From Phycisphaerales bacterium (GTDB lineage Bacteria > Planctomycetota > Phycisphaerae > Phycisphaerales > UBA1924), in the NCBI GenBank assembly GCA_020847535.1, contig JADLBU010000093.1, forward strand, positions 1 to 64,000: a DNA stretch of 64,000 bases, written 5' to 3'. The first letter of the stretch is position 1, and every line of letters begins with the position of its first letter. A program made the translations under genes and the position numbers. This document shows, piece after piece, positions 5,885-41,807 of this stretch. Below the pieces are notes generated by a model that saw only the letters and a list, made by a program, of their open reading frames with translations, was not told where the DNA came from and made no database searches.

Positions 5885-5922
5885 CCAAGCGGTGTTTGCC
5901 AGCGTTCAGTAAGTCTTATGAG

Positions 5923-5953
5923 GTCCCCGGGCACGTGCTCGGGGACTTTTTTT
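5923..5953 (+). terminator. Rho-independent terminator of the helicase gene
   Basis: Stem GTCCCCG...CGGGGAC with a 10-base loop, followed by seven T residues, 38 bases after the helicase stop. Confidence 0.85.
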
Positions 5954-6058
5954 CTTGATGATTGTGGATATGTGTGATTCACTCTCCGGACCCGCGGGCG
6001 GCGTTTCCATCGCTTGTGGTCGCCCGGCGGGGGAGAGGAATAGAGAGGGAGCAATCCG

Positions 6059-6960: not shown

Positions 6961-7080
6961 GTGGGCGGCGGAAACAAGCAAGGATCATCAAGCACGCTTT
7001 CTGGTGGGTTTTTTGTTTGACTCGCGGTCTTCAGGTTCCTGCGGCTTATCACTTTCATCTTTCGGCACTGCGTGGGGTTG

Positions 7081-7395: not shown

Positions 7396-7495
7396 GAGCG
7401 CAAGGTAACATGCGGGAAGCGGAATGCGCAGTTGGGATGCGGAAACCGGAGGAGGAAATCGCTGTCCGGTGGATGACTGCCGGCCTTGCGAGCGG

Positions 7496-7501
7496 TACAA
7501 C
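7496..7501 (+). promoter_or_regulatory. Candidate -10 box (TACAAC) for a leaderless transcript
   Basis: TACAAC lies 8 bases before the ATG at 7510, and no ribosome site is present. A -10 box here would start transcription at or next to the start codon. No clear -35 element is seen. Confidence 0.35.
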
Positions 7502-7509
7502 TCCAGCCC

Positions 7510-8655: not shown

Positions 8656-8678
8656 GCCCGGACGTGTGATCGGCATCG

Positions 8679-8684
8679 TACAAT
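8679..8684 (+). promoter_or_regulatory. Candidate -10 box (TACAAT) for leaderless ribD transcription
   Basis: A good -10 hexamer ends 7 bases before the ribD ATG, with no ribosome site between. Transcription would start at about the start codon. No -35 consensus is seen. Confidence 0.4.
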
Positions 8685-8691
8685 TGGATCG

Positions 8692-9855
8692 ATGGCGCTG
8701 GCGGATGCAAAGACTGATGAAGCGATGATGTCGATCGCGGCCCGTGCGGGGCTGCGGGGGTTCGGCTTGGTTGAACCGAATCCGATGGTCGCGTGCGTGA
8801 TCGCACGCGGTGGGGAAGTGCTGGGGATCGGCCATCACCGGGCGTTCGGCGGGCTGCATGCCGAGCGCGAGGCGCTGGCTTCGTGCCGGGCTCGCGGAGC
8901 GGATCCGCGCGGGGCGGTGATGTATGTGACGCTCGAGCCGTGCAACGGGCATGGGAAGCAGCCGCCATGCACACAGGCGATCATGGAAGCGGGGATTGCG
9001 CGGGTGGTGTATGCGGTGCGGGATCCAAATCCCGGGAAGTCGGGCGGGGCGGAGTTGCTGCGAGCGGCGGGGATCGCGGTCGAGCAGCTCAAGGGCCATG
9101 GACTCGCGGAGCGGCTGAGCGCGGGGTTCATCAAGAAGCTGGGGAGCGGACTGCCGTGGGTGATCGCCAAGTGGGCACAGACGATCGATGGGCGGATCGC
9201 GACTCGGACGGGTGAATCGCAGTGGATCTCGTGCGAGGCCTCGCGGCGGCGGGTGCATCGGCTGCGGGCGCGGGTGGATGCGGTATTGACGGGGATCGGG
9301 ACGGTTCTCGCGGATGATCCGCTGCTGACTGCGCGGCGGGAATCGGGGGCTCGTCGCCTCCGGCGGGTGGCGCGGCGGGTGGTGATCGATTCCAAGCTGA
9401 TGACCCCCGCGAGTTGCAGACTGCTGGCGACGGTGGGGGAGGCGCCGGTGACGGTGGTCACGGCATCCCCGCCGGAATCGGTGATCGCGGAGGTGGGAGA
9501 GTCGTGGAGGCGGCGGCGAGCGGGGATCACGGCGGCGGGCGCGGATGTCATCGAGGTGGGCGATCGCGGCGATGGCGAGGTGGATCTTCGGGCAGCGCTG
9601 GGAGCGCTCGCGGAGCGCTATGGGGTTTCCACCGTGCTTGTGGAGGCGGGGCCGCGGCTACTGGGATCGCTGGTTTCGGAGTCGCTGGTGGATGAGGCGA
9701 TCGTGTACGTGGCGCCGATGATGCTTGCGGATGAGCAGGCGCGGGGGGTGGCGGCGGGAAAGGCTGCGCCGCGGCTGGCGGAGGCTTCGCGGTGGAGGTG
9801 GGCACGTTCCCGGCGGAGCGGGGAGGACCTGGAGTTGTGGTGTTCGCGGGGTTGA
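8692..9855 (+). CDS. ribD: Bifunctional riboflavin biosynthesis deaminase/reductase RibD
   Basis: A 387-residue cytosolic enzyme carrying out the deamination and side-chain reduction steps of riboflavin synthesis. The N-terminal deaminase has the zinc ligand and proton donor in HAE (His56, Glu58) and the two cysteines of PCNGHGKQPPC (Cys84 and Cys93). The C-terminal reductase begins near WVIAKWAQTIDGRI and has LVEAGPRLLGSLV before its end. Length matches the family. It stands alone here, without ribE/ribBA/ribH, so the pathway is dispersed in this genome. Confidence 0.93.
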   Translation: MALADAKTDEAMMSIAARAGLRGFGLVEPNPMVACVIARGGEVLGIGHHRAFGGLHAEREALASCRARGADPRGAVMYVTLEPCNGHGKQPPCTQAIMEAGIARVVYAVRDPNPGKSGGAELLRAAGIAVEQLKGHGLAERLSAGFIKKLGSGLPWVIAKWAQTIDGRIATRTGESQWISCEASRRRVHRLRARVDAVLTGIGTVLADDPLLTARRESGARRLRRVARRVVIDSKLMTPASCRLLATVGEAPVTVVTASPPESVIAEVGESWRRRRAGITAAGADVIEVGDRGDGEVDLRAALGALAERYGVSTVLVEAGPRLLGSLVSESLVDEAIVYVAPMMLADEQARGVAAGKAAPRLAEASRWRWARSRRSGEDLELWCSRG

Positions 9856-9953
9856 TGGATGTGCGATCGATATAGTGTGAATGCGTGATATATGGGCCTG
9901 CTGCTGAGCGGCAAGTGACGTGGGGAATGGTTGTGCGTACCGTGGCGAGCCGG

Positions 9954-9973
9954 CCCCCGACTGAAGTCGGGGG
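9954..9973. repeat. Perfect 9-bp inverted repeat (CCCCCGACT)
   Basis: CCCCCGACT and AGTCGGGGG are separated by GA, forming a tight hairpin between ribD and gmhA. There is no T run, so it looks like a REP-like element or structure rather than a terminator. Confidence 0.6.
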
Positions 9974-10023
9974 CGCCGAACGGTGCAACGCAAGGGTTTC
10001 CGTATCATCGACCGCAAACAGAC

Positions 10024-10620
10024 ATGAGCATGCACGAGCCAGAAGCCATCTTTCGGAGCGGGATGACGGGCGCCTCATCGGCGCTGCAGGCGATCGCGGC
10101 GGATGCCGGGAGCCTGCGGGCGTTCGCGGGGATTGCGGTGGCGATCTGCCGGGCGCTGCGGAGCGGGAACAAGGTGCTGGTGTGCGGCAACGGCGGGTCG
10201 ATGTGCGATGCGATGCACTTCGCCGAGGAGCTGACGGGGCGGTTCCGTCAGGACCGTCCGGCGCTGGCGGCGATCGCGATCTCGGATGCCAGCCACATCA
10301 CCTGCGTGGGGAACGACTACGGGTTTGAGCACGTTTTCTCGCGTGCGGTTGAGGCGCTTGGGCAGCCGGGGGATGTGCTGATCGCGCTGTCGACCAGCGG
10401 CAACTCGCCGAACATCCTGCGTGCGGTGGAGACCGCACGTGGGGCGGAGCTGGTGACGGTGGCGCTGCTGGGGAAAGATGGCGGGATGCTCGCGGCCGGC
10501 GGCTCGTGTCATCACATGCTGATCGTGCCGGGGGAGACGAGCGATCGGATCCAGGAGCTGCACATGCTGGTGCTGCACCTGCTGGTCGAGGCGATCGAGG
10601 CGGAGCTGTTCCCACGATAG
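10024..10620 (+). CDS. gmhA: Phosphoheptose isomerase (SIS domain)
   Basis: A 198-residue SIS-fold sugar isomerase of the GmhA type, which converts sedoheptulose 7-phosphate to D-glycero-D-manno-heptose 7-phosphate for ADP- or GDP-heptose. The sugar phosphate site appears as VCGNGGSMCDAMHFAEELTG and as ALSTSGNSPNIL; both are conserved in GmhA, and length fits. The ATG at 10024 begins MSMHEPEAIF; an earlier in-frame start would read through the hairpin at 9954. A gmhB-like phosphatase lies at 21213-22055, but no hldE is in the window. Confidence 0.88.
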   Translation: MSMHEPEAIFRSGMTGASSALQAIAADAGSLRAFAGIAVAICRALRSGNKVLVCGNGGSMCDAMHFAEELTGRFRQDRPALAAIAISDASHITCVGNDYGFEHVFSRAVEALGQPGDVLIALSTSGNSPNILRAVETARGAELVTVALLGKDGGMLAAGGSCHHMLIVPGETSDRIQELHMLVLHLLVEAIEAELFPR

Positions 10621-10637
10621 ATGGGTTGGGCGGGCGA

Positions 10638-11213
10638 TCAGCCCTTGTCGTCATCGCCGCTGATGTCGCGCGCTGTACGGAGGCGTTCGAGGACGGGGTG
10701 GCGTTCTTCCTTCTTGCGGCGCAGAGCCTCGACGACCAGCGGCGGGCACATCGCCGAGAGGGCCTTGAGGTCGTGGCCCATCGCCGTGATCTGACGGATG
10801 AGGCTGGATGAGGTGTAGGCGAAGCTCTGGCCGGCGACCACGAATGCGGTCTCGAGCCCGGCGACCTCGCGGTTGGTGAGGGCCTGCTGTACTTCGTATT
10901 GCAAGTCGGAGAGGTTGCGGACGCCGCGGAGGAGCGCGGTGGCGTTGATCGATCGTGCGAAGTCGACGGTCAGGCCGCTGAAGGGGCGGACGGTGACGGG
11001 TGCATCGTTGGGATCGCTCTTGACCATGTCGGCGACCAGCTGGGTCGCCAGGTCGAGGCGTTCGTCGGCGGAGAAGAGCTGGTCCTTGCCGGGATTGCGG
11101 CCGATGGCGACCACGAGCTCATCGAAGAGCTTGCGGCCGCGGGCGATCACGTCGAGATGACCGAAGGTGATCGGGTCGAAGGAGCCGGGGAAGACGGCGA
11201 GGTGCTTGGGCAT
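10638..11213 (-). CDS. coaD: Phosphopantetheine adenylyltransferase
   Basis: A 191-residue nucleotidyltransferase catalysing the penultimate step of coenzyme A synthesis. The N-terminus has the signature FPGSFDPITFGHLDVI with the TxGH motif, followed by RGVRNLSDLQYEVQQALTNR and the TSSSLIRQI motif near the end. It is a little longer than the usual 160 residues because of a charged C-terminal tail. The ATG at 11213 is immediately before the canonical KHLAVFPGSFDP. It converges with gmhA and lies downstream of fabF across a long hairpin. Confidence 0.93.
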   Translation of the reverse strand: MPKHLAVFPGSFDPITFGHLDVIARGRKLFDELVVAIGRNPGKDQLFSADERLDLATQLVADMVKSDPNDAPVTVRPFSGLTVDFARSINATALLRGVRNLSDLQYEVQQALTNREVAGLETAFVVAGQSFAYTSSSLIRQITAMGHDLKALSAMCPPLVVEALRRKKEERHPVLERLRTARDISGDDDKG

Positions 11214-11261
11214 TTTGGAGATGGTACTAGGGGGTGAGGGGGCTTGTGATGGGAAGAAATG

Positions 11262-11353
11262 GGGCAAATAGAGCAAAGGGGGCAAATACGGCAAACTTCA
11301 GACGCGGGCGTCAGGTGAAGTTTGCCGCATTTGCCCCCTTTGCGGATTTGCCC
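11262..11353. repeat. Long inverted repeat of GGGCAAAT units between fabF and coaD
   Basis: The left arm (11262-11300) and right arm (11316-11353) are about 38 bases each and complementary apart from a few mismatches near the outer end. The inner 23 bases match at 22 positions. The 15-base loop itself contains GACGCGGGCGTC, a small hairpin. A relative of one arm lies at 971-1013. It separates fabF from coaD on the minus strand and may attenuate read-through. Confidence 0.8.
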
Positions 11354-11369
11354 ACTTGGTTGGGCGTCG

Positions 11370-12692
11370 TTATTCGAATTTCCGCACAACCACCGTGTCA
11401 TTCTGACCGCCGAAGCCGAAGGAGTTCGACATGCAGACCTGGATGCCGCCCTGGGCGTTGAGATCGCGGGGGGCGTTGGGGACGTAGTCGAGGTCGCAGT
11501 CGGGATCGGGGTTGCGGAGGTTGATGGTGGGGGGGGCGATCCCGGTCTGGATCGCCTTGACGCAGGTGATGAGCTCGACGGTGCCGGCGGCCTGGATGAG
11601 GTGGCCGAGCATGCTCTTGACGCTGGAGAAGGGGATCTTGGGGGCGAGGGTGCCAAAGACGGTCTTGACGGCGACCGTCTCGATCTTGTCGTTTTCCTTG
11701 GTGCCGGTGCCGTGGGCGGAGATGTAGTGGATGCCGGGTCGGCCATCGGGGCCGGGTTCGCGCGGGTTGATGCCGGCCTGCTTCAGGGCTTCGACCATCG
11801 CCGCGCGGGCACCCTTGCCGTCGGGCTGGATGTCGGTGATGCGGTAGGCATCGGCGGTAGAGCCGTAGCCGGCGATCTCGGCGAGCGGTGTAGCGCCGCG
11901 GGCGAGCGCGTGATCGAGTGATTCGAGGACGAGGATCCCGGATCCCTCACCCATGACGAATCCATCTCGGGTCTGGTCGAAGGGGCGTGCGGCGGTGGTG
12001 GCATTATCGCGGCGCTGGGACATCGCGGTGAGGCGGATGAAGCCGGTCATGCCCAGCGGGTGGATCATGCTGTGGGTGCCGCCGGCGAGCATGAGGTCGG
12101 CATCACCGCGCTTGATGATCTCGAAGGCCTCGCCGACGGACTGGGCGCCGGCTGCGCAGGCGGTCATGCAGTTGAAGGCGGGTCCGCGGCAGTTGAACTC
12201 GGCGGCGACGTGTGAGATGGAGAGGTTGGGTTCCTGCTCGATCTCACGTGCGGCGGTCATGTGCGCGAAGGCGGTGCGTGCCCAGGCGCCGCCATCCCCG
12301 GTCTCCTGGCCCTCGCGGAAGCCGGCGATGTTGGCGGCGGCGAAGTTGTCGAAGTCGAGGGAGCCTTCACCCGCGCCGAGGTAGACTCCGATGCGCCGGG
12401 GGTTGACCTTGGAGCGGTCGAGGCCGGCCTGCTTCCAGGCGCTGCTGGCGGCGGCGAGCGCGAACTGGGAGCTGACGCCGGCGTTCGCGTGGCGCTTGTG
12501 GGTCTCTGGGAGGAACTGGGAGAGCTGGAAGCCCTTGACCTCGGCGGCAAAGTTGGTGACGAAGGTGGAGGCGTCGAAGCGCGTGACTGGGCCGATCGCC
12601 GTCTGACCGGCGAGCAGCCGCTGCCAGACGGCATCGAGATCATGGCCCAGCGGGGTGATCCAGCCCATTCCTGTGATGACGACTCGGCTCAA
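11370..12692 (-). CDS. fabF: Beta-ketoacyl-ACP synthase II
   Basis: A 440-residue condensing enzyme of fatty acid synthesis. It has the N-terminal VVITGMGWITPLG, the active cysteine in NCMTACAAGAQSVG (Cys179), the His of SAHGTGTKENDKIE, the His of KSMLGHLIQAAGT and the C-terminal SNSFGFGGQN. It is slightly longer than E. coli FabF (412) because of inserts around residues 55-75 and 120-150. The start codon is TTG at 12690-12692, preceded by AAGGAA at a suitable distance. No acpP or other fab gene is adjacent. Confidence 0.93.
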   Translation of the reverse strand: MSRVVITGMGWITPLGHDLDAVWQRLLAGQTAIGPVTRFDASTFVTNFAAEVKGFQLSQFLPETHKRHANAGVSSQFALAAASSAWKQAGLDRSKVNPRRIGVYLGAGEGSLDFDNFAAANIAGFREGQETGDGGAWARTAFAHMTAAREIEQEPNLSISHVAAEFNCRGPAFNCMTACAAGAQSVGEAFEIIKRGDADLMLAGGTHSMIHPLGMTGFIRLTAMSQRRDNATTAARPFDQTRDGFVMGEGSGILVLESLDHALARGATPLAEIAGYGSTADAYRITDIQPDGKGARAAMVEALKQAGINPREPGPDGRPGIHYISAHGTGTKENDKIETVAVKTVFGTLAPKIPFSSVKSMLGHLIQAAGTVELITCVKAIQTGIAPPTINLRNPDPDCDLDYVPNAPRDLNAQGGIQVCMSNSFGFGGQNDTVVVRKFE

Positions 12693-25718: not shown

Positions 25719-25953
25719 GGAGAGGGCGATGGGGCTGCAAGCGGGTGAATCGGGCCTGCGGAGGTGGGATTCGGGGTGGCGGATTCTAAGTGATCGCGGG
25801 GCGGCGGAAAGAGCGGGGCCGGGGATCCCAGAAAGGTGGACTACGGGCGGCCGGGCCACGGAATGTGTACGCTGTTGGCCCTTGATTCGACCAGGAGCCC
25901 CGGGGCGCGTGGGGATACGCGGGACCGGGAATGAGCATCATTTGGAGCTTTTC

Positions 25954-28900
25954 ATGTTGAGCAACGCGCATCGGGCAGCGGTGATCGCCGGGATCGCCGG
26001 GGGTTTGGTGTCGGTGATTCAGGCCACCGCCCTCGGGCAGGGGGCTGATGGGAACCAGGCGTCGGCGGCGATGATGCGGTTCCCTGACATCAGCGCCACC
26101 CAGATCGTGTTCGTGTACGCGAACAACCTCTGGATCGCCCCGCGCGATGGCGGAATGGCGGTTCCGGTAGCAACGGCTCCCGGGGCCGAGGGGTTCCCCC
26201 GTTTCAGCCCCGATGGCAAGACGATCGCCTTCATGGGCAACTACGACAGCAACCGGGATCTGTACACGATCCCGACCTGGGGAGGCACGCCCAGCCGCGT
26301 GACCCACCACCCCGCCGGTGAGACGCTGTGCGATTGGACGGCCGATGGCAAGCTGGTGTTCATCGGCAACGGGATGGCCGGCCTGGCCCGCCAGACGCAG
26401 ATCTTCACGGTTCCGTCCGAGGGCGGCCTGCCGAACAAGCTCCCGGTCCCGTACGCGGGGTTCGGGACGATCAGCCCCGATGGGCAGTGGCTCTGCTACG
26501 CGCCGCACTCGACCGACAACCGGACGTGGAAGCGATATCGCGGCGGCATGGCGACCGACCTGTGGGTGTTCAACCTTCGCAACCAGTCGGCCAAGAAGAT
26601 CACCGACTGGGAGGGGACCGACACGCTGCCGATGTGGGTGCCCGGGGGCAAGAGCGATGTGGTGTACTACCTGGCTGACCAGGGGCCGGAGCACAGGCTG
26701 AACATCTGGAGCTACAACGTCGCCGACGGCACCCGTGAGCAGTTGACCAAGTACACCAGCGATGACATCCGCTGGCCCTCGATCGGCCCGGGCGCTGATG
26801 GCAAGGGCGAGGTGATCTTTCAGCTCGGCTCGGAGCTGCATGTCTTTGACCTTGGCGCGCGGCAGGACCGGGTTGTGAAGATCACGATCCCCGGCGACAA
26901 GCCCCAGGTGCGGACGCGGACGGCCGATGCCGCGCGGAACATCTCCAGTGCGGCGATCTCCTCGAGCGGCAAGCGCGTGGTGATCGAGGCTCGCGGGGAT
27001 CTGTGGTCGGCGCCCGCGAAAGAAGGGATCACCCGCAACCTGACCAACACCAACGGCGTGTTTGAGCGCGATCCTTCGTGGTCACCCGACAACAAGTGGA
27101 TCGCGTACTTCTCCGACGAATCAGGTGACTACGAGTTGTGGATCCGCGGCACCGATGCCAAGCTCCCGGAAGAAAAGAAGGACGAGAAGAAGGACGCCAA
27201 GAAGGACGATGCCAAGGCCGAGGATGCCAAGAAGGAGGAGGCGGCCAAGGAAGAGGCAAAGGCCGAGGAAGCAAAGCCCGTCGAGAAGCGCGAGCCGCGC
27301 AAGCTCACCAACCTCGGACCCGGCTTCCGCTACAACCCGGTCTGGTCACCGGACTCCAAGCACATCCTCTTCTCCGACAACTCCGGCACGCTGCACCTGA
27401 TCGCGGTCGAGTCCGGGGAGCTCAAGAAGGTCGATACGGACCCGTGGGGCAACATCCCGGATGTCTCGTGGTCGCAGGACAACAACTGGATCGCCTACAC
27501 CCGCAGCAGCGCAGAGAACCCCAACAGCGCGATCTGGGTCTACAACGTCAAGACCGGGGAGAAGTCCCAGATCGTCAGCGGCATGTTCAACAACTCGGCC
27601 CCGGCGTTCGATCGGGCCGGCGACTTCATGTACTTCGCCTCACAGCGCACCATCAACAACCCGATCTACGCCGATTCGGATACGACGTTCGTGTACACCG
27701 GCACCGGGAACATTTACATGGCGCCGCTGCGCGGGGATGTGAAGTATCCGTGGCTCCCCAAGAGCGATGAGGAAGAGCTCAAGAAGGAAGAGAAGAAGGA
27801 CGACGCCAAGAAGGATGGCGAAAAGAAGGACGGGGAGAAGAAGGACGAGGCCGCGAAGGATGAGGCAAAGAAGGACGATGCCAAGAAGGAAGAGAAAAAG
27901 GATGCCGCGGCAGACGACGGTGTGAGCGGCACGTGGGAGGGCCGGGCTTCCGGCGGTCAGATCCCGCCCGATGGCATCCCGTTCAAGCTGAATCTCACTC
28001 TGCACGACGATGGCAAGGTCACGGGCTCTGTCGCCTCGGCGATGGGTTCGGGGGCGGTGACGGGCACGTACAACAAGGATTCGGGGGTGATCACGCTGTC
28101 GATGGCCGTCGGAGACGACGGCGTGGTGACGCTCACGGGGAGCCTCAAGAACGGCGAGATCACGGGATCCTGGAACGCGGGGGATCAGCAGGGCTCGTGG
28201 TCGGCCCGCCGCAGTGCATCGGCGAGCGGTGGGGGAGGCGGTGGTGGTGGCGACTCCAAGTCCGATGACAAGAAGGATGAGAAGAAGGATGAGAAGAAGG
28301 AAGTCAAGATCGATGCCGAGGGCTTCGAGTCCCGCGCGTGGCAGTTGCCGATCTCTCCCGGCGCGTTCGGGCAGCTTGTCGTGACCGATGACAACAAGCT
28401 GATCTACTCGCGTTTCGGCGCTCGCGGGCAGCAGGAGCCGCCCTCGATCAAGATCTTCGACCCCAAGGACGATGCCCGCGAAGAGAAGACCGTGACGGCC
28501 GGCGCCGGCGGGTTCCAGCTTTCGGCGGATGGCAAGAAGCTCCTGGTGATGCGTGGCTCGCAGCTGACGGTGATGAGCGCGGCGGCGGGGGGCGGCACCT
28601 CGACGACCGTTCCCACCGGCGACATGCAGGTGAGCCTCAAGCCGCGCGAGGAGTGGAAGCAGATCGTCAACGATGCCTGGCGCCTGCAGCGCGATTTCTT
28701 CTACGAGCCCACCATGCACGGCGTCGACTGGAACGCCGCCCGGGACCACTATCTCAAGATGGTTGACGATGCATCGACCCGCGAGGATGTCAACTACATC
28801 ATCTCGGAGATGATCAGCGAGCTGAACATCGGGCACGCGTACCTGGGCGCGCCGGGCGATGTCGAAAGCCAGCCATCGGCGGGCACGGGCGTCCTGGGTT

Positions 28901-29883
28901 GCGACTTCGAACTCGTGAAGGGGCCCGAGGGGAACGCCTACAAGATCGCCAAGATCTACGAGGGCGGACCGTGGGATGCCGATGCACGCAACCCGCTGCG
29001 GCAGACGGGTGTCGATGTCAAGGAGGGCGAGTTCCTGCTCGCCGTCAACGGCGTCCCGCTCGACACCGCCGTCGATCCCTGGAAGATCTTCCAGTACCGC
29101 GCCGATGAGACGGTGACGCTGACGATCGGCAAGACGCCCTCGATGGCCAAGGACACGCGCGATGTCATGGTCAAGACGCTCGGCGGGGATGGCGCCCTCC
29201 GCTACCGCGCCTGGATCGAGCGCAACCGCAAGTATGTCGAGGAGAAGTCCGGCGGCAAGGTCGGGTACATCTACGTCCCCAACACGGGCGTCGATGGGCA
29301 GAGCGACCTGTTCCGCCAATTCTTCGGCCAGCGGCACCTGCCGGCCCTCATCATCGATGAGCGCTGGAACGGCGGCGGGCAGATCCCCACGCGGTTCATC
29401 GAGCTTCTCAACCGCCCGGTCGTCAGCTACTGGGCCCGGCGCCACGGTCAGGACTGGACCTGGCCGCCCGATGCCCACAACGGCCCCAAGTGCATGCTCA
29501 TCAACGGGCTCGCCGGCTCGGGCGGCGACATGTTCCCCTGGCTCTTCAAGCTCAACAAGATCGGCAAGACCATCGGCACCCGCACTTGGGGCGGCTTGGT
29601 TGGCATCTCCGGCAACCCCGGCCTGATCGACGGCGGGTCGATCACGGTGCCGACGTTCGGCATCTACGAGACCGATGGCACGTGGGCGGTCGAGGGCCAC
29701 GGTGTCGATCCCGACATCGAGGTGCTGGATGATCCGTCGAAGATGGTCGATGGCGGTGATCCGCAGCTGGATACGGCGATCACGCACATGCTCGATGAGA
29801 TCAAGAATCGCCCGTACACCCCCGCCAAGCGCCCCGTCAGCCCGGATCGCAAGGGGATGGGGATCAAGGATTCCGATAAGTAG
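25954..29883 (+). CDS. Tricorn-type S41 protease with an inserted beta-barrel and Lys-rich linkers
   Basis: A 1309-residue secreted or periplasmic protease. Signal peptide 1-30; WD40-like propeller repeats (FPRFSPDGKTIAFMG and others) to about 600; Lys/Glu/Ala-rich linkers at about 404-448, 604-652 and 760-786; PDZ about 985-1080; S41 catalytic core with GLAGSGGDMFPW (about 1187-1198) and TIGTRTWGG. The Asp after the nucleophile in archaeal tricorn is Gly here. NIGHAYLG supplies the upstream catalytic His. Residues 657-754 are an extra domain (GTWEGRASGG, then GSWNAGDQQGSWSARR) like a small lipocalin or avidin-like barrel, bounded by two linkers. GGAG lies 7 bases before the ATG. Confidence 0.88.
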   Translation: MLSNAHRAAVIAGIAGGLVSVIQATALGQGADGNQASAAMMRFPDISATQIVFVYANNLWIAPRDGGMAVPVATAPGAEGFPRFSPDGKTIAFMGNYDSNRDLYTIPTWGGTPSRVTHHPAGETLCDWTADGKLVFIGNGMAGLARQTQIFTVPSEGGLPNKLPVPYAGFGTISPDGQWLCYAPHSTDNRTWKRYRGGMATDLWVFNLRNQSAKKITDWEGTDTLPMWVPGGKSDVVYYLADQGPEHRLNIWSYNVADGTREQLTKYTSDDIRWPSIGPGADGKGEVIFQLGSELHVFDLGARQDRVVKITIPGDKPQVRTRTADAARNISSAAISSSGKRVVIEARGDLWSAPAKEGITRNLTNTNGVFERDPSWSPDNKWIAYFSDESGDYELWIRGTDAKLPEEKKDEKKDAKKDDAKAEDAKKEEAAKEEAKAEEAKPVEKREPRKLTNLGPGFRYNPVWSPDSKHILFSDNSGTLHLIAVESGELKKVDTDPWGNIPDVSWSQDNNWIAYTRSSAENPNSAIWVYNVKTGEKSQIVSGMFNNSAPAFDRAGDFMYFASQRTINNPIYADSDTTFVYTGTGNIYMAPLRGDVKYPWLPKSDEEELKKEEKKDDAKKDGEKKDGEKKDEAAKDEAKKDDAKKEEKKDAAADDGVSGTWEGRASGGQIPPDGIPFKLNLTLHDDGKVTGSVASAMGSGAVTGTYNKDSGVITLSMAVGDDGVVTLTGSLKNGEITGSWNAGDQQGSWSARRSASASGGGGGGGGDSKSDDKKDEKKDEKKEVKIDAEGFESRAWQLPISPGAFGQLVVTDDNKLIYSRFGARGQQEPPSIKIFDPKDDAREEKTVTAGAGGFQLSADGKKLLVMRGSQLTVMSAAAGGGTSTTVPTGDMQVSLKPREEWKQIVNDAWRLQRDFFYEPTMHGVDWNAARDHYLKMVDDASTREDVNYIISEMISELNIGHAYLGAPGDVESQPSAGTGVLGCDFELVKGPEGNAYKIAKIYEGGPWDADARNPLRQTGVDVKEGEFLLAVNGVPLDTAVDPWKIFQYRADETVTLTIGKTPSMAKDTRDVMVKTLGGDGALRYRAWIERNRKYVEEKSGGKVGYIYVPNTGVDGQSDLFRQFFGQRHLPALIIDERWNGGGQIPTRFIELLNRPVVSYWARRHGQDWTWPPDAHNGPKCMLINGLAGSGGDMFPWLFKLNKIGKTIGTRTWGGLVGISGNPGLIDGGSITVPTFGIYETDGTWAVEGHGVDPDIEVLDDPSKMVDGGDPQLDTAITHMLDEIKNRPYTPAKRPVSPDRKGMGIKDSDK

Positions 29884-29995: not shown

Positions 29996-31159
29996 TCAGC
30001 AGCCGAGTTCGAAGGCGGCGATGAAGTCGTCGAAGTCGGTGACATCGACGAAACCCGAGCCGTTGTAGTCGGCGGCATCGTTGCCGTGCTCGAAGGCGTG
30101 GATGAAGGCGATGTGGTCGTCGAGATCGACGAAGCCGGACTTGTCGAAGTCGGCCAGGCACGAGTAGTTGGTAACCAGGTCCGACCAGGGGCCGAGTTGG
30201 CCGGGGAGCTGGTCTACTCCGAGATACGGCACACCCGCGTGCGCGAGGATTTCTTCCTCGGTGAAGAGCGGGATGTCGGCGTGCCACGCGATGTTCATCG
30301 CCGTGATGAAGTAGTTGGCGAACACACCCTGGAGGGTTGTGTGGGGGTGAATGCCATCGTGGCAGAGGCCGGCGAGCTTGTTGGTGTTGGCGAGCGTGTC
30401 GGAGATGTTGAGAGAGATGGTCTGTCCGCCCATGGAGAGGAAGTCGTGGATGCTGTCGTTGGTCCCGAAGACCGCGCTGAAGACGCCGTAGAAATCGACC
30501 AGCGGCAGCTTGCGATCCCGGCAGAGATCGTGGATGCCCGCGTTGACGCGGCGGATGACCGCCGAGACACGCTCGCGCTTGATGGGGTCGGTGTACTGCT
30601 TGCGGGCCGAAAGGGCGATCGAGTAGTCGAGGAAGGTGCAGACCGTGAGCTTCAGGCCCGGGGCGGTCGCGGTGTCGACGATATTGGTCATGTTGGTGAT
30701 GCGGCTGGCGATGTAGTTGTCGATCTGGCTCTGGGTCCAGGTGTGGTTGTAGATATTGATGAAGGCGGCGGAGTTGGGGGCGAAGTCGTTGGAGCCGACC
30801 AGGAGGATGCCGTGCGTGACGCCGGAGCTTGTGTACTGGCCCGCGAGGCCGGAGGCCTGGCCGCCGGCGAGCACGGCGATCGTGCTGGCGCCGATCTTGG
30901 CCCAGTCGTACTTGTAGAACTTCCGGCGCGGCTCTCCCCACGTGCCGCCGGACTGGCCGGCCTCGGCTGCGGTGAGGCCGACATCTACGCCGCGATGGTG
31001 CTTGAGTTGTTCGAGCCAGTTGCTCGCGTAGCTGTAGGGCTCCTCGGCGTACTCATCGGTGAGGCTGTCGCCCATGACTCCGAGCCTTGCGACCTGGGCG
31101 TGCGCCGGCGCGATGGCAAGCGCAAGGGAGAGCGTGGCGAGTGCAGCGCGGGGACTCAT
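29996..31159 (-). CDS. Secreted SGNH/GDSL hydrolase with C-terminal dockerin-like repeats (copy 1)
   Basis: A 387-residue exported esterase or lipase. Signal peptide MSPRAALATLSLALAIAPAH; block I VMGDSLTDEY with the nucleophile Ser32; LLVGSNDF (block III); HDGIHPHT (block V, Asp and His). The last 55 residues have two EF-hand-like repeats, ADFDKSGFVDLDDHIAF and ADYNGSGFVDVTDFDDF, ending in ELGC. Such Gly-Cys-ending dockerin tails are characteristic of Phycisphaerae exported proteins. The substrate is unknown. The next gene is a paralogue in tandem. Confidence 0.88.
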   Translation of the reverse strand: MSPRAALATLSLALAIAPAHAQVARLGVMGDSLTDEYAEEPYSYASNWLEQLKHHRGVDVGLTAAEAGQSGGTWGEPRRKFYKYDWAKIGASTIAVLAGGQASGLAGQYTSSGVTHGILLVGSNDFAPNSAAFINIYNHTWTQSQIDNYIASRITNMTNIVDTATAPGLKLTVCTFLDYSIALSARKQYTDPIKRERVSAVIRRVNAGIHDLCRDRKLPLVDFYGVFSAVFGTNDSIHDFLSMGGQTISLNISDTLANTNKLAGLCHDGIHPHTTLQGVFANYFITAMNIAWHADIPLFTEEEILAHAGVPYLGVDQLPGQLGPWSDLVTNYSCLADFDKSGFVDLDDHIAFIHAFEHGNDAADYNGSGFVDVTDFDDFIAAFELGC

Positions 31160-31276
31160 CAGCATGTTGTATCGGGAGTCGCCGGGGATTGGAAGCGTGA
31201 ATTCAGGGGCCGCGGGCAATGAAACACGCCCCGGGATCATGTAACACCCAGGGGCCGCGGTTCCGGTGCGATCCTC

Positions 31277-32461
31277 TCAGCACCCCAGCTCGAAGTCCTG
31301 CACGAAGTCGTTGAAATCCTCGAAATCCACGAAGCCCGAGCCGTCGTAATCCGCGGCATCGTCCCCGGCCTCGAAGGCGAGGATGAACTGGCTGTAGTCC
31401 TCGATGTCGACGAAGCCGGACTTGTCGTAATCCGCCAGGCACGCGTAGTTGGTGATGTACTGGGCGTAGTCCCCGAGCTGTGAGGGGAGCTGATCGGGGC
31501 CGAGGTAGGTGAGGCCGGCGTGGCTCAGGATCTCCGCCTCGGAGAAGGTGGCGTACCCGGCGTTCCAGGCGATGTTGGCGCCGGTCATTATGACGTTGGC
31601 GAACACACCCTGCAGCGTGGTGTGGGGGTGGACGCCGTCATCGACGAAGCCGGCGAGCTTGTTGGTGTTGTTCGCGGTGTCGCTGGCGTTGAGGTCGATG
31701 CTGCGGCCGCCCATGTGCAGGAACGGCCTGAGCGACAGGTTGGTGCCGAAGATCGCCACTCCCAGGCCGTTGACATCGACCAGGGGAAGTTTCTTCTGAC
31801 GGCAGATGTCGGCGATTCCCTCGTTGACGGTGCGGATGACGGCGGAGACGCGCTCGCGCTTGTTGGCATCGGTGTAGATCGATCGCGTGATGGGGGCGAC
31901 CGTGTAATCCACGAAGTTGGCGACCGCGAGCTTCATGCCCGAGGCGTTGATGGTGTTGACGATGGTGTTCATGTTGGCGAGCCGGCCGTTGATGTAGTTG
32001 TTGATGGTGTTCTGTGACCAGAAGCCGTTGTAGATGTTGAAGAAGGCGCTGGAGGTGGGGGAGAAGTCGTTGGCGCCGATGAGCAGGACCGCGTGGGTGA
32101 CGCCGGAGGTGGTGAACTGGGAAGCCAGCCCGGTGTGCTGTCCGCCGGAGATCAGCGAATTGGTAGTCGCGCCCGAACGGGACCAGTTGTACTTGAAGTA
32201 CTCCCGGCGCGGCTCTCCCCAGGTGCCGCCGGGCTGGCCGGCCTCGCTCGCCGTGGGGCCGGCATCGACCCCGCGATACTGCTCGACCTGCTCGAACCAG
32301 TTCTTGGCGTAGCTGTACGTCTCCTCGGCGTACTCATCGGTGAGGCTGTCGCCCATGCCGCCCAGGCGGACGACTTGTGCGGTTGATTGAGAAGCGCAGG
32401 CAATGAGGAGTGCAACCCCCGGTGCAAGTCCAGCCCCGAACGAGGATGTGTGTCGTCGCAT
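31277..32461 (-). CDS. Secreted SGNH/GDSL hydrolase with C-terminal dockerin-like repeats (copy 2)
   Basis: A 394-residue tandem paralogue of the 29996-31159 product with the same layout: signal peptide ending near TAQ, GMGDSLTDEY (Ser39), LLIGANDF, DDGVHPHT, and two EF-hand-like repeats (ADYDKSGFVDIEDYSQF and ADYDGSGFVDFEDFNDF) ending in ELGC. Shared blocks such as KRERVSAVIR and GGTWGEPRR show recent common origin. The start at 32461 gives a normal signal peptide. The pair probably arose by duplication and may differ in substrate. Confidence 0.88.
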   Translation of the reverse strand: MRRHTSSFGAGLAPGVALLIACASQSTAQVVRLGGMGDSLTDEYAEETYSYAKNWFEQVEQYRGVDAGPTASEAGQPGGTWGEPRREYFKYNWSRSGATTNSLISGGQHTGLASQFTTSGVTHAVLLIGANDFSPTSSAFFNIYNGFWSQNTINNYINGRLANMNTIVNTINASGMKLAVANFVDYTVAPITRSIYTDANKRERVSAVIRTVNEGIADICRQKKLPLVDVNGLGVAIFGTNLSLRPFLHMGGRSIDLNASDTANNTNKLAGFVDDGVHPHTTLQGVFANVIMTGANIAWNAGYATFSEAEILSHAGLTYLGPDQLPSQLGDYAQYITNYACLADYDKSGFVDIEDYSQFILAFEAGDDAADYDGSGFVDFEDFNDFVQDFELGC

Positions 32462-32594
32462 CGCCCGTTTATACACCAATTCGCCCGGGGGTCCAAGCCC
32501 ATTACTTCCATTCCCCCCACGACTCCTCCTCGTCTTGCCCACGGCCGGCGATTCCAGGGTCGAACTGGTGCCTGTGCGGGTGCCGCGGGGGTGT

Positions 32595-33220: not shown

Positions 33221-35230
33221 TCAATCCTTGATGGTCTTGTCCAGGAACTTGACCATCCTGTCCACGAACAGCAGGCGGTTCTCGAGCTTGGCGAACCCGT
33301 GGCCCTCATCGGGGCAGAAGACCAGCTCGGGATCATCACCGCGCTTCTGGAGGGCGACCGCGAGCTGCATCGCCTCCCCGACAGGTACGCGCGGGTCGTT
33401 GAGGCCGTGGGCGATCAGCATGGGGACGCGGATGTGGTCGAATTTGTTGAGCGGTGAGATGCTCGCCAGGAACTCGGGATCTGTGAGCGGCCCGTACTCG
33501 ACCTCGCGCAGCTTGCGGCGATAGCCGCTGGTCTGCTCGAGGAAGGTCTTCATGTTGACGATGCCGACGACGTTGACGCCGGCGCCGAAGATGGGGTTGC
33601 CGGACTGGTGATCCTCGACGAGGCAGGCGACGGACATGAAGCCGCCGTAGGAGCCGCCGTAGGTGGCGATCTTCCCGGATTTGGCGTAGTTCTCCTTGAC
33701 GAGCCAGCGGGCGGCCTCGACGCCGTCCTTGACCGAGTCCCAGCGCCTCTTGTAGTCATCCATCATCAGGAACGAGCGGCCGTAGCCCGAGGAGCCGCGG
33801 ACGTTGGGCTGCATGACGCCGTAGCCGCGGGCGACCAGGTACTGCGTGGTGGTGCTGAACTGCGGCCGCGACTGGCTCTCGGGGCCGCCGTGGTAGTTCA
33901 CGATGAACGGGATGGGGGTGCCCGCCTTGGCGCCCGCGGGGAGGAAGACGAACGCGGGGATCTCGACGCCGTCGAAGCTCTTGTACTTGACCAGCTGCGG
34001 CAGGGGGAAGGTCTTGAGATCGATCCCCTGGGTGTCGGTGAAGGTGATCTGCTTGGAGGCGACCCTCGCCGAACCGCTGACTTCCGTGGGGACGGTGTAG
34101 CTGTAGGCGACGCCGGCGGTGCGTGAGTTGCTGAGCGACCAGGTGATGGTGCGGTTGCGGATGTCGGCGACCGAGACGACGCCCTTCTCGATCGGGGGCA
34201 GGGCGATCCCGTTGAACTCGGGTAGCTTGAAGAGGTAGAGGACCCCGTAGCCATCCTCGTTGGTGACGACCGACATCATGCCGCGGTCGTGGCTGATGCC
34301 GGCGCTGTCGATCTCGAACTTGGCGAGCCGCGTGATGGGCTGGGTGACAGCGCCGGAGGCCAGATCCTTGACGAAGAGCTGTTTGCGGCCGTCGGCGATG
34401 TCCGAGAGCATGACGAGCTTGGTCTCATCGGGGAGCAGGCCGACGATCTCATCGGCGCTGGTGCCTCCGGCGGGCGAGCCGGGGACGCTGATGGCCTGTT
34501 CCTTGAGCTCACCGCTGGCGACATCAAAGGTGTAGACGCTGGTGTCCGATGAGCTGATGTACTGCTGGACGATGAGCGTCTTGCCGTCCTTGGAGGCATC
34601 TCCGACGGCCCAGGTGCCCTCCTTGCCGAAGAGCTTGGTGGCCTTGCCCTTGGCGTTCTGTCCGCCGCCCTGGGCCTGCGAGTCCGACGCGAAGTCATAG
34701 CGGTAGATGTAGAAGTCGTTGGGGCTGGCGTCGTTGGCGGTGAAGTAGAAGCCCGATGAGTCGTCCAGCCAGTGGTTGAGGGCGTGCTGGACGCGGGGGT
34801 TCTCCGTGAGCGGGATCGCCGCGCCATCGTGGCCGAGGAGATAGAGCTGGTTGTTCTCGTTGCCTCCGACGGCGGCGGACATCAGCACGCGCTTGCCATC
34901 GGGCGAGACCGAGTAGTTCGAGATGCCATCCTTGAAGGAGCTGAGCTTCTCCATCCCGCCGGCGGCGGCATCGGCCCTGCCGGTCTTGGAGCGATAGAGC
35001 TGGTTGATGCCGTCGGGCCAGTCGATGGTGTAGAGCGTGCCGTCGGGGAGGATCGTGGGCCGCGAGGGCGTCCGGATCTTCATGAACTTGTCGATGCCGG
35101 GCGCGGCGGCCGATCCGGTCGCGGGCTGTGCCGGCGATTCGGGCCGCGTCATGCCCGCGGCGGCCCCGGACAGGCCTGCGGCGGCCAGGACGATCAGGAC
35201 GGAACGGACGATCGGACTCGACACATTCAT
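33221..35230 (-). CDS. S9-family prolyl oligopeptidase-like secreted peptidase
   Basis: A 669-residue exported serine peptidase. An N-terminal signal peptide (MNVSSPIVRSVLIVLAAAG) precedes a beta-propeller region with SPDGKRVLM-type repeats (about 60-400). The alpha/beta-hydrolase domain carries YGGSYGGFMS (nucleophile Ser527), HGLNDPRVP (Asp) and CPDEGHGF (His). It fits dipeptidyl-peptidase or acylaminoacyl-peptidase types. The ATG at 35230 follows GGAGCTTGTC and is preferred over an ATG four codons upstream, which overlaps that site. Confidence 0.9.
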   Translation of the reverse strand: MNVSSPIVRSVLIVLAAAGLSGAAAGMTRPESPAQPATGSAAAPGIDKFMKIRTPSRPTILPDGTLYTIDWPDGINQLYRSKTGRADAAAGGMEKLSSFKDGISNYSVSPDGKRVLMSAAVGGNENNQLYLLGHDGAAIPLTENPRVQHALNHWLDDSSGFYFTANDASPNDFYIYRYDFASDSQAQGGGQNAKGKATKLFGKEGTWAVGDASKDGKTLIVQQYISSSDTSVYTFDVASGELKEQAISVPGSPAGGTSADEIVGLLPDETKLVMLSDIADGRKQLFVKDLASGAVTQPITRLAKFEIDSAGISHDRGMMSVVTNEDGYGVLYLFKLPEFNGIALPPIEKGVVSVADIRNRTITWSLSNSRTAGVAYSYTVPTEVSGSARVASKQITFTDTQGIDLKTFPLPQLVKYKSFDGVEIPAFVFLPAGAKAGTPIPFIVNYHGGPESQSRPQFSTTTQYLVARGYGVMQPNVRGSSGYGRSFLMMDDYKRRWDSVKDGVEAARWLVKENYAKSGKIATYGGSYGGFMSVACLVEDHQSGNPIFGAGVNVVGIVNMKTFLEQTSGYRRKLREVEYGPLTDPEFLASISPLNKFDHIRVPMLIAHGLNDPRVPVGEAMQLAVALQKRGDDPELVFCPDEGHGFAKLENRLLFVDRMVKFLDKTIKD

Positions 35231-35336
35231 GACAAGCTCCATCAGTCGTTCGGACAGGGCCTTTCCCACCGGCCCCGCCCGCGAGACGCTCCCCAACCGT
35301 GCGGACAGGTGTTGGACAGGTTACCTGGAATCAGGT

Positions 35337-38048: not shown

Positions 38049-41000
38049 ATGCCCAACGGATCGCCGCTGAGTTCCACGCCGGTGACGACTTCCGCCGCGC
38101 CTACCAAAGGCGGCGCGGGTGATGTCGGTGTCATTATCCGGACACTTGAGGGGATTCGCCGTCGGGCCTGGCTCCTGCTGCTGGTGGCAGGGGTCGCGGT
38201 CATCGTCGGGATCGCCGGGGCGATCCTCTGGTCGGCCGCTCTGATCGATTTCTATCTTCGCGGACCGGCCATGCTGCGGCTGGCGCTCCTCATCCTGAGC
38301 CTGATAGGGCTGTGGGTGTTGATCCGCCGGCAGTTGTCGCCGGTGTTTGCGTTCAAGCCATCGTTGACGGAGCTGGCTCTGCGGCTGGAGCGGACGCCCG
38401 AGGGCAAGAAGGCAGGGCTCGAGGGGATACTTGCCTCGGGGCTTGAACTGGCGAGCCGGCTCGCGGATCGGCGAACCGATGCAGCGCGAGCGGGGCGAGC
38501 GGTTGAAGAGGCGCTGACGAAGTTCAGGTCATCCAATGCCGCAACGCACGTTCTGCGGGGACGGGCGGCGTGGCGAGCCGTCGGAATTGCGGCGATCCTC
38601 GTGCTGCCGGGGCTGGTGCTTGCGATGTGGCGTCCTGACCTGGCGCGCATCGGCATCGAGCGGATCTTGACTCCATGGACCGGCGCGGCGTGGCCTCGGC
38701 GCACGCACCTCGCGGATGTGACGGGGATTGCAGCGCACTCATCGCGATCTTCGCTTCCGGTGCGCGCGGTGGTGAGACACACGTATGGCGGCGGTTACAC
38801 TCCCGATGTGTGGGTGAAGTTCCGGACGATCGTCGACGGCCGCGCGGGAGAGTGGAGACGGGAACTCTTGACGCCCCAGGGCCGGCAGGGCAATTCGATC
38901 GACGGATCGATCAGCGGCGACCTGGTCGAGCGGCTCATCGAGCCGGCGCCCGAAGCGCGCGAGGGGGTTGATCTCGCCACGGCGATCGTCGAGGTCGAGT
39001 ACGGGTTCATCAGCACCGACGATGAGACGGGGATGGGCAGGATCCGGCTGGTGGAGCCCCCGGTGATCGTGCGAACGGAGCTGGATGTCGAGCTTCCGGC
39101 GTATGCGGCATCGTTGCGCACGGGGTCGGCGGTCGGCGCGTTTGTCTCGGGGCGGCAGGAGATCTCGGAAGGCTCGGCGATCACCTCGGTGGGTTCGGTG
39201 CTCGCGGGCTCTCGCGTCACGGTGCATGCGATCCTGAATAAGACGGTGGCAACGCCCGCCGCCGGGCCAGGACCGATGTTCTCGGGGGAAGCCCCCGCGG
39301 ATGCATCGCTGGTGGCGTCGGGTTCGCGGTGGACGCTCTCGTTCACGGCGGAGGAATCGGCACGCATCTCGTTGCTCCTGGAAGATGAGTTCGGGATCCC
39401 CAGCCCGTCGGAGGTGGTGCTGGCGCTCTCGGTGCTGGCCGATCAGCCGCCCAGCGCGGCGGTGTTGACACCGGCGCAGGATGAGGGTGTGCTTCCGACG
39501 GCGACCGTGGGGATTATCGGTGAGGGCCGGGACGATGTCGGCCTGTCGTGGACGGGGATCGAGCACCGGCTGGTTCGCGGGTTGTCGGGTTCGCTGGGCG
39601 CGGCAGCGCCGGCTGGGAGCGTGGTCGAGTTGTCGAGGTGGAGCGCTTCGGATGCAGGCGCGACAGGCGGCCTGGAGGCGCGCGTCGAGGCGAGTCTCAA
39701 GCTCGAAACCCTCTCGGTCAAGCCCGGGGATGAGGTGGTTCTTGCGGCGGTTGCCAAGGATGGATTCCTGCACGATGGCGCTGAGCACGAGGTCGTGAGT
39801 TCCGCGCCGCGGCGGCTGCTCGTGATCTCCGAGGCCCAGCTCACCGAGCAGGTCCGCAGCGAGCTCGCGGCGGTGCGCGACTCGGCGATCCGGCTCGATC
39901 GGGACCAGGATGAACTGACGCGCCGTGCGGCACAGCTGACCGCGGGCCAGCAGGAATCGGCGCAGCGCTCGATCACGCAGCGGCTGTCCCCGCCGGCCGA
40001 GCTTCTGGAGCGTTTGGCGCAACGGGTCGAGCGCAACGGTGTTTCGGACCAGGCCCTGGGCGGGATGCTCAAGGATGCGGGCGAGACGCTGGAGGCCGCC
40101 GCGAAGGCCTCCGAGGAAGCGGCCGAGGCGCTGGAGAGATCCGACCGCAAGACCGCCGCCGGCGAGGATCCGGCCGAGGAGGACCGGCAGGCCAAGACCG
40201 CCCAGGATGACGTGCGTGAGGAACTGACCCGCGTCGTCGGGATGCTCGATCGCGGGCAGGATGCCTGGACGGTGCGGCGCGAGGTTCAGCGGCTCGCCAG
40301 CCAGCAGCGAGAGTTGCTCGAGCAGACACAGGATGCAGGCCAATCGACCGCGGGCAAGCCCGCCGATGCGCTCACCCAGCAGGAGCGCGAGCGGCTGGCG
40401 CAGCTCGCCCAGCGCCAGCAGGAGCTCTCGGCGCGCACCGAGGCGGCGATCGAGTCATTGGAAGAACGGGCCAAGGCGCTCGAGCAAAGCGATCCCGGCC
40501 AGGCGGCGGCGATGAAGCAGGCCGCGCAGCAGGCCCGCCAGCAGAAGACGACCGCCGGCCAGCGTCGCGCTGCGCAGGACATCAAGGACAACCGCACGCA
40601 GTCGGCCAACGAGCTGCAGGAGAAGGCCGCCGAGGCGCTCGAGCAGATGCTTCAGCAGTTCGACCAGTCCGAGCGGCAACGCGATGAAGCGCTGCGGCGC
40701 GTGCTTGCGGAGCTGGCCCAGCAGATCGAAGCATTGATCGCTCAGCAGAACAGCGAGATCGAGGCGCTCGCCGGCGCCGGCTCCGAGCCCGCGGCCAAGG
40801 GCCTGGATGCCGGGATGATCTCGCTTCACTCGGCGACCCTCGGGCTTGCCGATTCGGTTCGCGATGGGGCGCGCGAGACGCGTCCGATTGCCTCACCGCT
40901 CTCGGTGGCGAGCGATGCCCAGCGGCAGGCGATCTCGGAGCTGCGCCGGCCGACGGCATCGGCGGACAAGACGCGCGAGCACGAACAGGCGAGCCTGACG

Positions 41001-41807
41001 CGGCTCAGGGAAGCTCAGGAACTGGCCAGCAAGCTGGATGAGCAGGCCCAGCAGCGCGACCAGACCCGCCAGCGCGGCCAGATCCTGGAGGCGTATCGCG
41101 CTGCGCTCGAGGAGCAATCGGTGATCGCCGCCGAGACCGCGCCGATCGTCGGTAAGGCCTTGGATCGCCGTCAGCGCGCCACCGCTCGCGCCCTGGGAGA
41201 GCGCGAGGAGGCCCTGCGAGCCACGCTCGAGGAGCTTCGCAAAAAGAACACCGACATCGAGGACACGATCATCTTCAGCTATGCCCACGACCAGCTCGAT
41301 GGTCTGCTCATGCGAGCCGCCGATGCGCTGCGTGGAGGTGGCGCGAGCAAGGGAACGCAGCGCGACCAGGCCTCCGCCGTGACGCTGCTCAAGTCGCTCG
41401 TGCAGGCGCTGGCCGCAAGCTCCCAGTCTTCGGATCCGTTCCGAGAGGGCGCCGATGAGGGTCAGCCGCAGGAAGATGGCGGCGGTGGAGGGGCGGGCGG
41501 CGCGGGAGGCAACAAGCCCAAGCTGATCCCTGAAATCGCGGAGCTCCAGGGCCTCCGCGGTTTGCAGGAGATCGCCCGGGATCGCACGCGAGCGGCGTCG
41601 GAAGCCGGTGCCGAGGCGGCCGACGATGAGCTTGCCGACTTGCAGAAGTTCCAGCGTGAGATCGCCGACAAGGCCAAGAAGCTGATCGAGAAGTTCAACA
41701 ATCCCGAGAATGGACCGCCGCCACCCGAGGGCGATGCCAAGCCCGAGAACGGGGATCAGGATCAGCCGCAGAACCCGCCGAACGAGCAAGGAGCGCAGGA
41801 GCCATGA
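38049..41807 (+). CDS. Large membrane protein with long coiled coil (DUF4175-like)
   Basis: A 1252-residue protein. Two membrane helices at about 40-92 and a third at about 178-198 frame a cytosolic segment. Residues 200-590 are beta-rich and extracytoplasmic. Residues 590-1170 are Gln/Glu/Ala-rich coiled coil (many AQQ, ELAQ and REEL heptads). The layout recalls DUF4175/TIGR02302 proteins, often located near MoxR ATPase and von Willebrand-domain genes, but none of those is present here. It is first of four genes linked by ATGA overlaps. Role unknown; an envelope scaffold is inferred. Confidence 0.7.
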   Translation: MPNGSPLSSTPVTTSAAPTKGGAGDVGVIIRTLEGIRRRAWLLLLVAGVAVIVGIAGAILWSAALIDFYLRGPAMLRLALLILSLIGLWVLIRRQLSPVFAFKPSLTELALRLERTPEGKKAGLEGILASGLELASRLADRRTDAARAGRAVEEALTKFRSSNAATHVLRGRAAWRAVGIAAILVLPGLVLAMWRPDLARIGIERILTPWTGAAWPRRTHLADVTGIAAHSSRSSLPVRAVVRHTYGGGYTPDVWVKFRTIVDGRAGEWRRELLTPQGRQGNSIDGSISGDLVERLIEPAPEAREGVDLATAIVEVEYGFISTDDETGMGRIRLVEPPVIVRTELDVELPAYAASLRTGSAVGAFVSGRQEISEGSAITSVGSVLAGSRVTVHAILNKTVATPAAGPGPMFSGEAPADASLVASGSRWTLSFTAEESARISLLLEDEFGIPSPSEVVLALSVLADQPPSAAVLTPAQDEGVLPTATVGIIGEGRDDVGLSWTGIEHRLVRGLSGSLGAAAPAGSVVELSRWSASDAGATGGLEARVEASLKLETLSVKPGDEVVLAAVAKDGFLHDGAEHEVVSSAPRRLLVISEAQLTEQVRSELAAVRDSAIRLDRDQDELTRRAAQLTAGQQESAQRSITQRLSPPAELLERLAQRVERNGVSDQALGGMLKDAGETLEAAAKASEEAAEALERSDRKTAAGEDPAEEDRQAKTAQDDVREELTRVVGMLDRGQDAWTVRREVQRLASQQRELLEQTQDAGQSTAGKPADALTQQERERLAQLAQRQQELSARTEAAIESLEERAKALEQSDPGQAAAMKQAAQQARQQKTTAGQRRAAQDIKDNRTQSANELQEKAAEALEQMLQQFDQSERQRDEALRRVLAELAQQIEALIAQQNSEIEALAGAGSEPAAKGLDAGMISLHSATLGLADSVRDGARETRPIASPLSVASDAQRQAISELRRPTASADKTREHEQASLTRLREAQELASKLDEQAQQRDQTRQRGQILEAYRAALEEQSVIAAETAPIVGKALDRRQRATARALGEREEALRATLEELRKKNTDIEDTIIFSYAHDQLDGLLMRAADALRGGGASKGTQRDQASAVTLLKSLVQALAASSQSSDPFREGADEGQPQEDGGGGGAGGAGGNKPKLIPEIAELQGLRGLQEIARDRTRAASEAGAEAADDELADLQKFQREIADKAKKLIEKFNNPENGPPPPEGDAKPENGDQDQPQNPPNEQGAQEP

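Follow-up and report, generated by a model that had tools for sequence, protein, structure and literature searches.

A calycin-like barrel carried on charged linkers in a planctomycete tricorn-type protease is a member of an unnamed domain family of exported proteins

The 64,000-nt stretch of Phycisphaerales DNA analysed here (the window; contig JADLBU010000093.1, forward strand) encodes a tricorn-type protease whose second, 7-bladed propeller contains a linker-barrel-linker unit (27784-28302). We conclude that this insert is one representative of a calycin-like domain family, mobile and still without a name, that is found in exported planctomycete proteins. The preliminary description of this DNA had pointed to a small barrel between charged linkers; to this the analysis adds the calycin/streptavidin-type fold, the wide spread of the domain, and a recent copying event that involves two genes of a related genome (G026).

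Results

The host protease

The gene (25948..29883, + strand) was assigned by Pfam, phmmer, profile alignment and its N terminus to an exported tricorn-type S41 protease of 1311 AA, read from a TTG codon. Residues are numbered from this TTG (residue 1, window 25948); translation probably starts at the first Met, residue 3 (25954). Pfam recognised PD40 repeats followed in tricorn order by Tricorn_C1 (residues 899-956), PDZ_Tricorn (981-1075) and Peptidase_S41 (1104-1259), the last three (28642..29724, +) each scoring over the Pfam cut-off. The Thermoplasma tricorn 1k32 was matched by phmmer with an E of 1.4e-78 and by profile with an E of 6e-132. We take the catalytic set of tricorn protease to be Ser745, His746, Ser965 and Glu1023; the places of residues 745 and 746 were read from the alignment to 1k32, and motifs served to place the catalytic Ser and Glu. 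His963, Ser1191 and Glu1249 were invariant in all 31 aligned orthologues, suggesting that the protease is probably active, and residue 962 (28831-28833), at the place of archaeal Ser745, was Gly in the same 31 of 31. Since the N terminus MLSNAHRAAVIAGIAGGLVSVIQATALGQG has a hydrophobic stretch that, judged by eye, resembles a Sec signal peptide, a periplasmic or secreted location is probable.

Several other genes of the window were noted. Two adjoining, related GDSL-type hydrolases (29996-31240 and 31277-32542, both on the - strand) have Asp-rich C-terminal repeats that look dockerin-like by eye, with weak Pfam EF-hand matches in the second of them. An ORF of 1252 AA (38049-41807, +) gave no Pfam match.

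The barrel and the charged tracts

The insert consists of a charged upstream linker (residues 613-656, 27784..27915, +), the barrel (657-759, 27916..28224, +; core 659-757, 27922-28218, +) and a Gly/Lys/Asp/Glu downstream linker (760-785, 28225..28302, +), and a further Lys/Glu/Asp/Ala-rich tract lies upstream, between two propeller-blade strands (404-448, 27157..27291, +). AlphaFold2 prediction of residues 335-890, for which a 36-sequence alignment was used, gave a confident propeller and eight confident strands at 661-758, whereas pLDDT fell below 50 at exactly three segments (409-444, 616-652 and 761-781), so that both linkers and the first tract are predicted disordered. When the barrel was predicted alone (103 residues), an eight-stranded meander with no helix was obtained at pLDDT 93.4. 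That run used the alignment A1, which holds 51 of 52 barrels; the partial L023 was left out and a second weak match in L021 (E 0.017) was dropped. The preliminary description had placed a small beta-barrel at 657-754, as a modular insertion on flexible tethers within the propeller region, and the models agree with it on both counts.

The combined Lys, Asp, Glu and Ala content is 89% for the tract at 404-448 and 93% for 613-658 vs. 30% for the whole protein, and the three 40-residue stretches richest in these residues all fall in the three charged tracts. Such a composition had been proposed for both flanks of the barrel and for the tract at 404-448. It was found for the latter and for the upstream flank; the downstream flank (758-789) is less pure, with 56% of these residues and a Gly run that precedes its Lys/Asp/Glu part.

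The predicted propeller superimposed on 1k32_A 329-673 with Z 33.6 (321 residues, rmsd 2.7). In the profile alignment, the linker-barrel-linker unit is faced in the archaeal chain by positions 520-538 alone, i.e. the insert falls between 519 and 539, and nothing in 1k32 corresponds to it, as had been suggested from the sequence. In the model, strands three and four of a blade flank the charged tract (404-448), and this also holds for the barrel insert; from this strand order, both would be expected to emerge from the same propeller face. The linker-barrel-linker segment is kept in genomes of the same genus (74% identity in G001 and 61% in G002). A frame error or an assembly artefact was considered and rejected, since many genomes retain the segment and its dN/dS is low.

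Fold of the barrel

Foldseek and VIA-align comparisons both grouped the barrel with eight-stranded calycin-like barrels; VIA-align placed it close to 1jmx_A 178-283 (Z 14.8, rmsd 2.0 over 98 residues), streptavidin 1mk5_A (Z 14.1, rmsd 1.6 over 91 residues, 22% identity) and designed small barrels (Z 13.7-14.3), where matches within 1 Z were counted as tied. Calycins are described, in the available part of PMC3367933, as eight-stranded up-and-down barrels with a Gly-X-Trp signature on strand A and an Arg on strand H. In the aligned members we found Gly5 in 50/51, Trp7 in 49/51 (Tyr in the other 2), and at position 99 Arg in 43/50 and Lys in 7/50. An eight-stranded calycin-like fold is thus well supported by the predicted structure.

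Single-sequence searches with the barrel found no match in Pfam, NCBIfam or PDB sequences; the top PDB row was a viral envelope protein with an E of 0.21, judged to be a chance hit. The 51-member profile returned only weak matches among PDB sequences, the best of which (E 0.064) was not an avidin. Pfam GH43_C (PF16369) did not match the window barrel and matched five of the 51 members weakly (best E 0.0016). Pfam reaches the edge of the barrel family, since a distant four-barrel member (L137) passes the GH43_C gathering score (38.2 vs. 23.4 bits, E 2.2e-9).

Spread of the barrel in other proteins and genomes

The preliminary description had proposed a search for the barrel in separate proteins, and the domain was recovered from more than 10 unrelated families. 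An iterated HMM found it in more than 50 ORFs of relatives. Profile searches detected it in 43 of the 61 genomes examined from the window's order (1-5 copies, E 0.001) and in 88 of 294 genomes sampled across the phylum (E 1e-5). Eight of 15 genomes with another or no phylum label matched at E 0.001 or better; three of these (G356, G357, G358) hold loci already known for a barrel-bearing tricorn, and MAG labels may be wrong. In the window's own genome, one barrel was found on the contig of the window. A second strong barrel belongs to an M28 peptidase (contig C83, E 2.1e-23), and weaker ones to an amidohydrolase (C6, E 6.8e-7) and a PQQ-propeller protein (C3, E 0.0045).

Pfam scans identified the hosts as peptidases of families M28 (L072, L073, L100), S9/DPPIV (L065, L069, L079) and M14 (L247), Met-zincins with DUF4953/DUF5117 (L063, L076), amidohydrolases (L064, L066, L067, L078), Sortilin-Vps10 proteins with PDZ (L068, L070, L071) and a second group of tricorns (L074, L075, L077, L082). 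Single hosts were a kinase with an FGE-sulfatase domain (L080), an alpha/beta hydrolase (L147), a beta-lactamase-fold protein (L150), an HlyD protein (L144), a methyltransferase (L152) and a deiodinase-like protein (L272). Five ORFs are made up of hardly more than a signal-like N terminus followed by 3-4 tandem barrels (L135, 1797-2936; L136, 1742-2881; L137, 2170-3573; L141, 2273-3991; L151, 2205-3593). An S9 prolyl oligopeptidase encoded near the tricorn gene of the window (33221-35296, -) has no barrel, unlike the S9 proteins of some relatives.

In total, 182 distinct barrels were collected from 170 host proteins, 80 of which are tricorn orthologues; this count leaves out barrels shorter than 76 residues or with a domain E above 1e-4, including the weak own-genome copy L143. 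Hosts were named by similarity to a small labelled library, mostly scanned with Pfam, and some are cut by the ends of their loci. With these names, the nearest-neighbour barrel came from the same host family in 132/182 cases vs. a mean of 41 in shuffled data, suggesting that host families keep their barrels and that jumps are uncommon.

Presence and inheritance within tricorn proteases

Among close orthologues, 30 of 35 have the barrel, and in the other five (L077, L082, L083, L084, L085) a charged loop of 25-80 residues remains. The wider comparison covered 114 tricorns, made up of the close orthologues and those of named genomes after removal of two named duplicates. Of these, 65 have the barrel and 49 do not, a count that draws on 80 named loci which are the best matches listed and not a fair sample. 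The segment, then, is not common to all tricorn homologues, and the modular reading held against the observation that could have overturned it; a domain intrinsic to tricorn was rejected on account of the barrel-free relatives. Within the 80 best matches listed, 36 loci carry the barrel, mostly labelled Phycisphaerae/Phycisphaerales or Planctomycetota, with three labelled Chthonomonas or Verrucomicrobia. All 49 barrel-free tricorns still have the loop, at 27-137 residues.

On a host tree built without the barrel columns, presence of the barrel requires 13 changes vs. 37 in shuffles; the tree (FastTree, 31 of 111 inner branches weakly supported) cannot separate gains from losses, so that the barrel may have been gained once and lost many times, or gained several times. 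Over 64 sequences, barrel identity tracks host identity, with a Mantel r of 0.62 where 500 permutations reached no more than 0.13, and the barrel diverges faster, with a mean identity of 31% vs. 57% for the host. Taken together, the sequences suggest insertion of the barrel into a pre-existing hypervariable loop, with mostly vertical inheritance, repeated loss and possibly repeated gain.

At five loci, two tricorn genes (A and B) are adjacent. Exactly one of them bears the barrel in four of the five, namely A in L183 and L201 and B in L077 and L082, and both do in L235 (G045), with which L075 overlaps with its tricorn A cut and was counted as one pair. These small numbers are suggestive of one barrel per pair being sufficient. 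At another locus (L185), a Sortilin-type gene with a barrel (3480-7781) is directly followed by a barrel-free tricorn gene (7833-11423).

A shared linker and barrel in genome G026

In G026, the tricorn gene (L020) and the kinase-FGE gene (L080) share a gapless stretch of 421 nt that is 91% identical (382/421). It begins at the acidic linker, stops shortly after the barrel and comprises linker and barrel only; the two barrels are 92.7% identical. Three FGE paralogues of the same genome align with the L080 protein in the FGE part only (61-68% identity), and the profile search found three barrels in G026, in the tricorn, the kinase-FGE protein and an alpha/beta-hydrolase-like ORF. The shared stretch is a recent copy between unrelated genes. 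Copying was probably from the tricorn to the kinase gene, because the next best matches are barrels of related tricorns. The sole strong membrane-spanning-like stretch of the L080 protein (390-408) separates the kinase domain from the barrel (744-843), indicating that the latter should lie outside the cytoplasm.

Selection, interior and surface

In six close pairs dN/dS of the barrel was 0.08-0.21 (0.21 for the window-G001 pair; two of the six have a high dS of about 1.1-1.2) vs. 0.05-0.20 for the rest of the protein, which argues that the barrel is under purifying selection. Inward and outward positions were assigned by strand alternation and hydrophobicity rather than coordinates, which is partly circular. 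Inward positions so defined are 72% hydrophobic and 17% Gly, with position 99 (the structural Arg) as the only conserved polar residue. At outward positions, Ser/Thr account for 51% and hydrophobic residues for 12%; the surface is variable, with no conserved patch. Strands 1 and 2 are joined by a loop with a motif of approximately L-P-P-D/E-G-x-P-F, which is seen again in different hosts and might point to a specific function that they share. The disordered linkers flanking the barrels have median lengths of 37 and 26 residues.

Discussion

The barrel family is mostly inherited with its host genes, is occasionally copied into another gene along with its linker, and is under purifying selection. 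We consider it somewhat better than an even chance that the barrel is a linker-tethered, non-catalytic accessory binding module of exported planctomycete enzymes. Tethers of about 40 and 25 residues would hold it off the propeller body, and its variable Thr/Ser-rich surface and loops would bind something outside the cytoplasm, be it a glycan, part of the envelope or a protein partner. The barrel could in this way localise the enzyme or gather it with partners without a part in catalysis. We infer the binding role from the architecture, and favour tethered surface binding or docking over a carrier, a gate or a filler because of the hydrophobic interior without a polar site, the Ser/Thr-rich surface and the signs of selection. 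Against it, a variable surface would equally be expected of a pure spacer or solubility domain, and the 49 barrel-free tricorns, counted over the 114 that draw on the 80 best matches listed, manage without it. A bolder version, to which we give little credence, is that linker-barrel-linker is a planctomycete docking cassette copied among genes for exported enzymes through recombination in its repetitive charged linkers and recruiting all its carriers to one receptor or matrix in a dockerin-like manner; the stand-alone proteins of 3-4 barrels and the adjacent tricorn A/B pairs would then be parts of that system.

Calycin barrels open at one end and often contain a site for a ligand. The fold itself might suggest a ligand-carrying calycin that holds a small hydrophobic molecule inside, with the tether letting it sample the surroundings. 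The Gly-X-Trp/Arg signature, the hydrophobic interior and Foldseek similarity to FABP and to designed ligand-binding barrels all fit such a carrier, which we nevertheless regard as unlikely, as the domain has only about 100 residues with short strands and its inward positions are filled by Leu, Val, Phe and Trp and by Gly and Ala, the sole conserved polar one being structural Arg99. A domain that builds the protease oligomer or gates substrate entry, by analogy with Pab87 (CubicO), would be a somewhat less distant prospect, if still an outside one. The accessible text of PMC2651629 calls tricorn a giant self-compartmentalising protease and describes the lipocalin domain of Pab87 as crucial for octamerisation and active-site compartmentalisation, which makes it the best precedent, and the single barrel in 4/5 adjacent tricorn pairs looks as if one per complex were enough. 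Yet the same barrel is found in enzymes whose folds are unrelated, some close tricorn relatives do without it, the disordered linkers are unlike a rigid interface, and the scarcity of outward hydrophobic residues comes with no conserved patch.

Alternatively, the disordered loop may simply tolerate the barrel as a passenger, with no more than a spacer's use for solubility or stability. The persistence of the loop in barrel-free tricorns, the faster divergence of the barrel and the 13 changes on the host tree are what a passenger would predict. However, a dN/dS near that of the enzyme, signature residues kept in distant hosts and tandem stand-alone barrels with no host to ride in make this improbable in our judgement, and the binding module is the reading we retain.

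The domain is widespread, yet the window copy is recognised by no Pfam model, and a part of many exported planctomycete peptidases and amidohydrolases therefore goes unannotated. The accessible portions of the open-access literature, including PMC6411480, PMC2651629, PMC3367933 and PMC8567305, describe neither this domain nor a barrel in bacterial tricorns, which is not proof of absence. The G026 pair provides a clean recent example of a domain copied with its linker between unrelated genes, making domain mobility through low-complexity linkers directly testable.

Comparison with known systems

The best structural counterparts among the matches listed are barrels of the quinohemoprotein amine dehydrogenase alpha chain (1jmx_A 178-283, as above, and 1jju_A 171-273, Z 13.8). 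We take these to be calycin-like and one domain of a larger exported enzyme, as here; the host is another one, and the PDB profile search gave no sequence match between them and the window barrel. Avidin and streptavidin are alike in the eight-stranded meander, but the window barrel is shorter and inserted. GH43_C, a C-terminal lipocalin-like domain, has a model that is matched by the distant relative L137 and not by the window barrel. The lipocalin domain of Pab87 is also a calycin-type barrel joined to a peptidase; unlike the window barrel it is C-terminal, packed directly and oligomer-forming, as far as the available part of PMC2651629 describes it. Its absence among the 50 structural matches listed excludes nothing.

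Closest as a whole protein is the tricorn of Thermoplasma acidophilum (1k32, 1n6d), with which the window protein has in common the propellers, the C1, PDZ and S41 domains, and a His, a Ser and a Glu at what are probably the catalytic places. It differs from the archaeal enzyme in the barrel and charged linkers, the signal-peptide-like N terminus and the Gly at the place of Ser745, and the archaeal tricorn structures thus miss a domain found in many bacterial tricorns.
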